Shown piece after piece: positions 35,746-37,861 of a stretch of DNA of 64,000 nucleotides. Below the pieces are notes generated by a model, which ran no database searches, was not told the origin of the DNA, and saw only the letters and a program-made list of their open reading frames with translations. This DNA comes from Gemmatimonadaceae bacterium (lineage in GTDB: Bacteria; Gemmatimonadota; Gemmatimonadetes; Gemmatimonadales; Gemmatimonadaceae): assembly GCA_020851035.1 (NCBI GenBank), contig JADZDM010000001.1, positions 1 to 64,000 on the forward strand, read 5' to 3'. Position 1 is the stretch's first letter, and each line of letters opens with the position of its first letter. The translations under genes and the position numbers were made by a program.

Positions 35746-35812
35746 TGTCAATCTTAGTTGACGCTTGAAGATGTCACGAAGCCTTGACACCAGCGGGAGC
35801 GGGCGCAGAATA
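35746..35812 (+). promoter_or_regulatory. Antenna promoter with tandem PpsR/CrtJ boxes
   Basis: Two TGT-N12-ACA-type sites: 35746-35763 (TGT...ACG, one mismatch, but with a perfect GTCAA/TTGAC inverted repeat) and 35772-35789 (exact TGT...ACA). Exactly 8 bp separate them, the spacing known for cooperative CrtJ/PpsR binding at photosynthesis promoters. The second box contains TTGACA (35784-35789), a perfect -35, with CAGAAT 16 bp downstream as a -10. A repressor on the boxes would block polymerase. Repression in oxygen or strong light is inferred from the family; no ppsR gene is in the window. Confidence 0.85.
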
Positions 35813-35941
35813 GGACTGTGGTTCCGGACTTGTGTTGTCGCGAGGACAACGCCGGAGACGGGAACACTCTGCATGGCTAGCCGAGCCATGGTCCCCCTAC
35901 GTGCGGGTAAGCACGGAAGTTGTTGCTCCGGGAGATTCGTT

Positions 35942-36100
35942 ATGGCAGATAACGATCCGAATCGCGTCTGGCCGTCAGGCCTGACGACGAGGGAAGCTGA
36001 GGAGTTGCACGACGGTCTGAAGCAGGGCACCCGCATTTTCGGTGCGATTGCGATTGTGGCACACATCCTCGCGTTCATTCAAACTCCCTGGCTCAAGTAG
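35942..36100 (+). CDS. pucB: LH2-type light-harvesting beta polypeptide
   Basis: 52 aa. Beta apoprotein of an antenna ring that binds bacteriochlorophyll in the membrane. Pattern as in LH2: LTTREAEELHDGLKQGTRIF then IVAHILAFIQTPWLK. H41 matches the B850 ligand (His30 of the Rhodoblastus acidophilus protein), H23 the conserved second His, R31 the Arg that hydrogen-bonds B800. ATG 35942 has GGGAGA six bases upstream; an in-frame extension back to 35765 overlaps the promoter and is rejected. A 130-base leader holds two small hairpins (35834-35850, 35872-35890). Confidence 0.95.
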   Translation: MADNDPNRVWPSGLTTREAEELHDGLKQGTRIFGAIAIVAHILAFIQTPWLK

Positions 36101-36112
36101 AGGGCTACCGTC

Positions 36113-36352
36113 ATGAACGAAGGAAAAATCTGGACCGTCGTGAAGCCGAGCACGGGTGTGCCGCTGTTCCTGGGCACGGTCGTCGTGATGGTCTTCGCGG
36201 TTCACTATGCGATCCTGTCGCACACGACCTGGTTCGCGTCCTACTGGCAGGGTGGTGCCAAGGCTCCGGTGACGGCTTCGGCACCGGCGATCGAAACCGC
36301 TCCGGCAGCTGCAACGCCGACGTCGGCTGCACCGGCAACGCCTGCGCCGTAA
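36113..36352 (+). CDS. pucA: LH2-type light-harvesting alpha polypeptide with long C-terminal tail
   Basis: 79 aa. The first 50 residues follow the R. acidophilus B800-850 alpha protein position for position: MN-GKIWTVV-P--G at the start, H31 as the B850 ligand, AILSHTTWF, and Y44-W45 (SYWQGG), the pair that red-shifts B850. The N-terminal Met corresponds to the B800 ligand. Unlike the 53-aa classical protein it has a 27-residue Ala/Pro/Thr tail ([18 protein letters not shown]...). It starts 12 bp after pucB. It may correspond to the outer-ring LHh antenna known from Gemmatimonas phototrophica; I cannot confirm that here. Confidence 0.94.
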
Positions 36353-36356
36353 TGGT

Positions 36357-36409
36357 CTTGCCGAAAGGCAAGGCGTCATAGGGGCCGGGATCTTCGATCC
36401 CGGCCCCTA
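36357..36409 (+). promoter_or_regulatory. Two intercistronic hairpins between pucA and pucC
   Basis: Hairpin 1: CTTGCC / GGCAAG closing a GAAA tetraloop (36357-36372), five bases after the pucA stop. Hairpin 2: a perfect 14-bp stem TAGGGGCCGGGATC / GATCCCGGCCCCTA with a 3-nt loop (36379-36409). No T run follows, so they look less like a terminator than like the mRNA-stabilising hairpins that raise antenna transcript over downstream genes in puf/puc operons. Partial termination remains possible. Confidence 0.7.
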
Positions 36410-36457: not shown

Positions 36458-37861
36458 ATGAATCGGATCTCCCGCAAGGTTCTCAGCGCCTGGGCGTCAC
36501 AGGGATCGCGGCTGCTCCCGTTTGCGGATGTGGCGACGCCGGACCTGCCGCTGGCGCGCCTGCTCCGGCTCTCGCTGTTCCAGATCTCGGTCGGCATGGC
36601 TTCCGTGCTCCTGGTGGGCACGCTCAACCGGGTGATGATCGTCGAGCTGAGGGTCCCGGCGTCGATCGTCGCGATCATGATCTCGCTGCCGCTGCTGGCC
36701 GCCCCGTTCCGTGCCCTCATCGGCTTCCGTTCCGACACGCACACCTCTGCCCTGGGGTGGCGTCGTGTGCCGTACATCTGGAACGGCACGATGCTCCAGT
36801 TCGGCGGCTTCGCGATCATGCCGTTCGCGATCCTGGTGGTGTCGGGACGCAACGCGGTCGGTGCGCCAGACTGGATCGGCCAGGTCGGTGCGGGCCTCGC
36901 GTTCCTCCTCGTCGGTGCCGGACTGCACACGGTGCAGACGGCGGGACTGGCGTTGGCCACGGACCTGGTCGCCGAGGACTCGCAGCCGCGGGTCGTGGGG
37001 CTGATGTACGTCATGCTGCTGGTCGGGATGATCGCGAGTGCGATCGTGTTCGGGTGGCTGCTCACCGATTTCTCGCCCGGGCGGCTGATCCAGGTGGTGC
37101 AGGGCGCGGCGGTGGCGACGATCATCCTGAACGTCATCGCGATGTGGAAGCAGGAAGCGCGTGACCCGAACAAGACGCGCGAAGGGCGGGTGGAGCCGTC
37201 GTTCGCCGAGTCGTGGTCCAGCTTCATCGCCGGTGACGGCGCGATTCGCCGCCTGATCGCGGTGGGCATCGGCACGATGGCCTTCAGCATGCAGGACGTG
37301 CTGCTGGAGCCGTACGGCGGGCAGGTGTTGGGCCTGACGGTGGCGAACACCACGCGGCTCACGGCCACGCTCTCCTCGGGTGGCCTGCTGGGGTTCCTGC
37401 TGGCGTCCCGTCTGCTCGGGCGTGGCGGTGATCCGTTCCGCATGTCGTGCAGTGGCGCATTGGCGGGGATTCCCGGCTTCGCGTTCGTGATCATGGCGGC
37501 GCCGATGCACTCGGGGCTGCTGTTCTTTGCCGGCACCTTCCTGATCGGGTTCGGCGGTGGGCTGCTGAGCCACGGCACGCTGACGGCGACGATGCAGAAT
37601 GCGCCGGAGGCGCAGCGCGGGCTGGCGCTCGGTGCGTGGGGGGCGGTGCAGGCCTCGGCGGCGGGGCTTGCGGTGGCGTTCGGGGGCGTGGCGCGCGACG
37701 TGATGAACGGGTTGCAGTCGCGGTCGGTGTTGGGCTTCAGCCTGGATGGCCCCGCCACCGCCTACACCTTCGTCTACAGCCTCGAGATCGTGCTGCTGGT
37801 GGTGGCACTGGTGGCGATGGCGCCGTTGATCCGCCGCGCACCCCACGCGGTCACGGCCTGA
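36458..37861 (+). CDS. pucC: PucC/LhaA-family antenna assembly protein
   Basis: 467 aa, about 12 transmembrane helices. Member of the bacteriochlorophyll-delivery (BCD) branch of the MFS, needed to assemble LH1 or LH2. The sequence shows the family's opening LARLLRLSLFQISVGMASVL, GTLNRVMIVELRVPASIVA, GFRSDTH followed by GWRRVPYIWNGTML, and PYGGQVLGLTVANTTRLTA, all PucC/LhaA-like. Same strand as pucBA, 105 bp downstream across the two hairpins, so probably read from the same promoter at lower level. Start ATG 36458. Confidence 0.93.
   Translation: MNRISRKVLSAWASQGSRLLPFADVATPDLPLARLLRLSLFQISVGMASVLLVGTLNRVMIVELRVPASIVAIMISLPLLAAPFRALIGFRSDTHTSALGWRRVPYIWNGTMLQFGGFAIMPFAILVVSGRNAVGAPDWIGQVGAGLAFLLVGAGLHTVQTAGLALATDLVAEDSQPRVVGLMYVMLLVGMIASAIVFGWLLTDFSPGRLIQVVQGAAVATIILNVIAMWKQEARDPNKTREGRVEPSFAESWSSFIAGDGAIRRLIAVGIGTMAFSMQDVLLEPYGGQVLGLTVANTTRLTATLSSGGLLGFLLASRLLGRGGDPFRMSCSGALAGIPGFAFVIMAAPMHSGLLFFAGTFLIGFGGGLLSHGTLTATMQNAPEAQRGLALGAWGAVQASAAGLAVAFGGVARDVMNGLQSRSVLGFSLDGPATAYTFVYSLEIVLLVVALVAMAPLIRRAPHAVTA

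Follow-up and report, generated by a model that had tools for sequence, protein, structure and literature searches.

The window, by which we mean the whole stretch of 64,000 nucleotides that was analyzed, contains a small operon of antenna genes next to gyrB and, in front of it, two putative binding sites (boxes) for the regulator PpsR (Table 1). The operon consists of pucB, pucA and pucC and lies outside the photosynthesis gene cluster of the host; the 349-bp gap between the end of a GH16 gene (35592) and this LHC/PUCC operon houses both boxes. That antenna genes stand behind the operator, as an earlier reading of the sequence alone had it, is confirmed, and their type can now be given as LH2, which goes beyond that identification. 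PucA matches the LH1 alpha subunit of Gemmatimonas phototrophica with only 26 bits, against ~74 bits to LH2 alpha, and it has an LH2-type N-terminal start together with His31, Tyr44 and Trp45, as read from the sequence. Judged by such comparisons, the predicted PucBA polypeptides are closer to LH2 than to LH1 and are assigned to LH2.

Table 1. Features of the pucBAC locus (positions in the window)
Feature	Position	Strand	Remarks
PpsR box 1 (putative)	35746..35763	+	TGTCAATCTTAGTTGACG; final G for A is the one mismatch to TGT-N12-ACA; center about -64
Spacer between boxes	35764..35771	+	CTTGAAGA, 8 bp
PpsR box 2 (putative)	35772..35789	+	TGTCACGAAGCCTTGACA; exact TGT-N12-ACA; -35 element inside; center about -38
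-35 element TTGACA	35784..35789	+	terminal part of box 2
-10-like element CAGAAT	35806..35811	+	16 bp 3' of the -35 element
pucB leader element CCCCCTA-CGTGC-GGGT-AA-GCACG	35893..35915	+	conserved; possible pseudoknot or hairpin
pucB, LH2 beta subunit	35942..36100	+	Pfam LHC; PDB LH2 beta chain 7zdi_B, 71 bits
pucA, LH2 alpha subunit	36113..36352	+	Pfam LHC; LH2 alpha 7zdi/1kzu, about 74 bits
Strong hairpin in the pucA-pucC gap	36381..36407	+	78-nt region folds at -47 kcal/mol
pucC, LH2 assembly protein	36458..37861	+	Pfam PUCC, 510 bits

The host has four LHC genes in total, namely one pufBA pair and the pucBA pair, and therefore no pufA2 for an outer LHh ring. A search of 395 Gemmatimonadota genomes detected LH2 alpha in six, namely the host, its congener G090 and four members of another family. 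Published descriptions of Gemmatimonadota include neither an LH2 antenna nor its regulation, and no report of LH2 genes in the phylum was found in the open-access literature that we searched. The hairpin between pucA and pucC is probably an mRNA stabilizer or attenuator and likely sets the ratio of pucBA to pucC transcripts. In a related genus (G014, L216 6050-6592) an antenna alpha fused to an OmpA domain adjoins gyrB, which is the same neighborhood as that of the LH2 operon in the window.

Direct reading of the region upstream of pucB bears out what had first been noticed there, namely two TGT-N12-ACA sites separated by 8 bp, one exact and one with a single mismatch, the second of which contains TTGACA. 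The box centers at -64 and -38 are counted from a predicted +1 near 35818 in a promoter that is itself predicted from the sequence. The predicted -10 element lies outside both boxes, and the overlap with the core promoter is limited to the -35 element, which is covered by box 2. The likeness to promoters repressed by CrtJ/PpsR, which the sequence-only reading had emphasized, holds for the tandem palindromes, the 8-bp spacing and the coverage of the -35 element but not for the register, which is -64/-38 rather than -35/-10 as at bchC. On the evidence of sequence and its conservation, we consider it very probable that the two boxes form the operator through which the PpsR of the host would control pucBAC.

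Exact single TGT-N12-ACA sites occur at chance level, with 6 in the window compared to 5.84 expected (no enrichment) and 409 in the genome compared to 398 for the reversed control. This speaks for a chance resemblance, or for the site of another regulator. However, pairs at the 8-bp spacing with at most one mismatch number 4 per strand in 4.97 Mb while the reversed-pattern control gives 0, and they are located at the pucB promoter, in the gap between ppsR and bchG, and in two further places. Dinucleotide shuffling of the 349-bp intergenic region produces the 8-bp pair in 5e-5 of cases, rising to 1.5e-4 when spacings of 7-9 bp are allowed. The exact core TGTCA-N8-TGACA has four copies in the genome, three of which are at photosynthesis promoters (pucB, bchG and bchF). 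Given the shuffling result, the retention of the pair in the sister genome and its recurrence at pucB across phyla with the same spacing, we regard chance or a different regulator as an extremely improbable source of the boxes. A third TGT-N12-ACA at 35831 has no conserved counterpart in the sister genome and is probably due to chance.

In that sister genome (G090, locus L054) both boxes are found at the same promoter, which provides the conservation in related strains that the sequence-only reading had called for. The counterpart of box 1 is TGTCAACTAAAGTTGACG and that of box 2 is TGACAAGCAGACTTGACA, with one mismatch; the -35 element corresponds to TTGACACCAGCGG and the -10-like element to GCAGAATAG. 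In the comparison of the host (G000) with G090, the pucB boxes are kept amid diverged DNA. Among 55 pucB promoters drawn from several classes, 39 contain the boxes at the 8-bp spacing when up to two mismatches are allowed (0.9% in shuffles), a count that measures recurrence and not 39 separate events because the promoters are phylogenetically non-independent; a spacing of 7 bp was found in three and of 9 bp in two. In a second family of Gemmatimonadota (L205-L208, from G290, G237, G276 and G369) pucBAC is also accompanied by 8-bp tandem PpsR boxes. The register varies, in that the boxes of Comamonadaceae pucB promoters are mostly on -35/-10 while the upstream and -35 register is found in the window, in G090 and in a few others. 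In L059 and L123 a box is present at each of the upstream, -35 and -10 positions, and a triple array trimmed at either end would account for both registers. As an aside, three public metagenome-assembled genomes labelled Rickettsia typhi, Akkermansia muciniphila and Bordetella parapertussis (L114, L129 and L130) carry pucBAC of the Comamonadaceae type and are probably misnamed.

The search for ppsR that had been suggested together with the operator yielded one strong homologue in the host assembly (34 contigs, estimated 95.7% complete with 1.2% contamination), scoring 467 bits against TIGR02040 (cut-off 275) at C25:81787-83211, within a photosynthesis gene cluster of ~41 kb. The protein has PAS and HTH_8 (Fis-type HTH) domains and matches the PDB PpsR 4hh2 with 172 bits; PpsR is present in 26 of the 27 phototrophic genomes tested. 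The gene adjoining ppsR encodes two B12-binding domains, as in PpaA/AerR. AppA was rejected as antirepressor because the genome gave a single BLUF match, to a short protein with no domain other than BLUF.

The host PpsR (474 aa) contains no cysteine and neither do the PpsRs of the congeners G089 and G090; the other Gemmatimonadota PpsRs with a recovered reading frame have none in the HTH stretch inspected. The host protein thus lacks the redox cysteines of PpsR/CrtJ, which makes a disulfide or sulfenic-acid switch of the CrtJ type, and thiol-based oxygen sensing, impossible. Such cysteines (Cys249/Cys420 in Rhodobacter capsulatus) are not universal, as the one in the HTH is missing from PpsR2 of Bradyrhizobium and Rps. 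palustris (PMC4452267). In Rubrivivax an 8-bp spacing goes with redox-insensitive binding (PMC4452267), and from the combination of this spacing with a cysteine-free PpsR we predict a weak direct redox response. The oxygen comparison proposed earlier for this operon presupposes redox sensing, and the PpsR here is without cysteine.

Sites of the same type were found at other promoters of the photosynthesis cluster, where the gene calls are those of this analysis and the names confirmed by NCBIfam are bchG, PpsR, bchF, bchC, bchI, bchX and pufM only. The host has tandem boxes at bchG (C25:81695-81738) and at bchC (C25:110183-110226), where the gene-proximal box has TTGACA. Further boxes are a perfect one at bchF, which includes TTGACA, and a single good one at bchI; in comparisons between the congeners, the boxes at bchF, bchC and bchI stand out as islands of conservation amid diverged DNA. 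No such pair is found at the main puf operon of the host. The paired motif, which had been expected to recur at photosynthesis promoters, is thus found at bchG and bchC in the host and in phototrophic relatives, but not at the main puf operon of the host. Most of the phototrophic Gemmatimonadota that were examined have the 8-bp tandem at bchG or bchC; among them are G. phototrophica (G045, recognized by a 71/71 match to PDB 7o0u) and G. groenlandica (G044, with a PufA that agrees with PDB 9h19). In G. phototrophica these tandem boxes are degenerate (bchG, L186 about 7823; bchC, L218 about 3845), with two mismatches in one box. The published description of the cluster of this species gives a single PpsR site and minimal regulation (PMC11406998), and in view of the additional tandem boxes the single-site count looks low. 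Two unrelated features of the host contig are a predicted PufM frame of 506 aa (L012 11161-12681; G000 C25:101161-102681) with an OmpA-like C-terminal domain after the M subunit, and a GGTGACAGTGCACGAATATC-like repeat array downstream of pufC (G000 C25 about 99540-99850).

The mechanism that we propose is that two PpsR oligomers would bind side by side on the tandem boxes, where the downstream one would occupy the -35 hexamer and block RNA polymerase while the upstream one would stabilize it cooperatively. The likeliest route for the signal that would relieve the repression, or convert it to activation, is the adjacent B12-binding PpaA/AerR-like protein, which would make the signal light or the state of cobalamin rather than oxidation of thiols in a PpsR that has no cysteine. 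We rate the chances of a B12 or light input through this protein as about even. The PpsR-bound operator could instead act mainly in activation together with PpaA/AerR. The boxes are centered at about -64/-38, the position of box 1 would suit an activator too, the -10 box of most Comamonadaceae promoters is missing here, and in R. capsulatus both CrtJ and AerR are needed for photosynthetic expression (PMC5362033). We nevertheless consider a mainly activating operator rather unlikely, since box 2 terminates exactly on the -35 hexamer, a -35 element with the full consensus TTGACA needs no activator, and the PpsR of Rubrivivax strongly represses pucB, whose aerobic expression goes up about 190-fold when ppsR is deleted (PMC4452267).

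The photosynthesis genes of G. phototrophica are insensitive to oxygen and react to light only transiently (PMC11406998). Because this species has PpsR, PpaA and tandem boxes, the conservation of boxes is no guarantee of strong regulation, and those at pucB might be a relic that was inherited with the operon and has lost its useful regulation, as perhaps happened in G. phototrophica, which retains ppsR and its degenerate boxes. However, the boxes of G. phototrophica are visibly further from the consensus, whereas both pucB boxes persist with near-perfect cores amid much diverged DNA in two species that share only 79-80% identity in PucC. A relic appears distinctly improbable on these grounds, and control of pucBAC by PpsR, with repression as its expected main effect, is the reading that we prefer.

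Horizontal acquisition is the best explanation for the presence of the LH2 operon pucBAC. In the congener G089, whose gyrB is 95% identical, a peptidase gene leads straight into gyrB and both GH16 and pucBAC are missing, while G090 has the order GH16-pucBAC-gyrB as in the window; GH16-pucBAC was therefore gained or lost as a unit. Contamination as the source of the window was rejected because its gyrB, which is present once, shares 95% identity with the gyrB of each congener, and because the order GH16-pucBAC-gyrB is also found in an independent assembly. In the tree, PucC groups with the LH2-associated PucC of Beta- and Gammaproteobacteria, away from the LhaA of the host, and the host and G090 proteins are only 79-80% identical. 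The PucC of the second Gemmatimonadota family is placed elsewhere, and a single origin of all Gemmatimonadota LH2 operons is disfavored by the tree, although not rejected (p-AU 0.075).

The non-coding DNA in front of pucB has affinities of its own. A leader element with the consensus ACCC-N-CGTGC-GGGT-NNN-GCACG, about 40-50 nt 5' of pucB, is common to the window, G090 and most pucB leaders of Beta- and Gammaproteobacteria, with the GTGCGGGT core in 36 of 55, and is absent from the second Gemmatimonadota family. We tested whether the element is a structured RNA; only its sequence conservation was upheld, and the structural claim was dropped because there is no Rfam family for the pucB leader and the covariation of the proposed pseudoknot is weak and not clearly above that of shuffles. 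The shared element nonetheless speaks for a joint transfer of the genes and the non-coding DNA in front of them, which suggests that the operator also came along with the LH2 genes. The proposal that the regulatory logic arrived together with the genes thus receives support that falls short of proof.

In the host, an LH2 operon of its own thus stands behind a predicted PpsR operator that is well conserved, and candidate tandem PpsR boxes at bchC and bchG prove widespread in the phylum, G. phototrophica included. The broader picture, to which we would give about an even chance, is of a Gemmatimonadota lineage with a modular antenna of LH1 and LH2 where Gemmatimonas has a fixed double ring. In this picture the amount of LH2 is set by a cysteine-free PpsR read via a B12 photoreceptor, and both operator and mRNA leader were imported from a purple bacterium along with the genes. 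The locus offers a clear test case for two questions, namely whether transcriptional control survives when photosynthesis passes from one phylum to another and how a cysteine-free PpsR receives its signal.

Among known systems, the bchC promoter of R. capsulatus, a photosynthesis promoter bound by CrtJ, likewise has two TGT-N12-ACA palindromes with exactly 8 bp between them (PMC6199135, PMC5362033), but its boxes are on -35 and -10 (PMC5362033) and not at about -64 and on -35 as here. The boxes at R. capsulatus puc are 240 bp apart (PMC4452267) compared to 8 bp in the window. The pucB promoter of Rubrivivax gelatinosus belongs to the same gene, likewise has one TGT-N12-ACG and one TGT-N12-ACA box, and has this pair 5' of the leader element that is common to the window (L083); it differs in its 9-bp spacing and in boxes that lie over -35/-10, and its PpsR has the redox cysteine Cys436 (PMC4452267), in contrast to the gemmatimonad protein, which has none. 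G. phototrophica has the same arrangement of PpsR and B12 protein and 8-bp tandem boxes at bchG and bchC, but these are more degenerate than those of the host, and in place of LH2, which it does not have, it carries a second pufA for the LHh outer ring.
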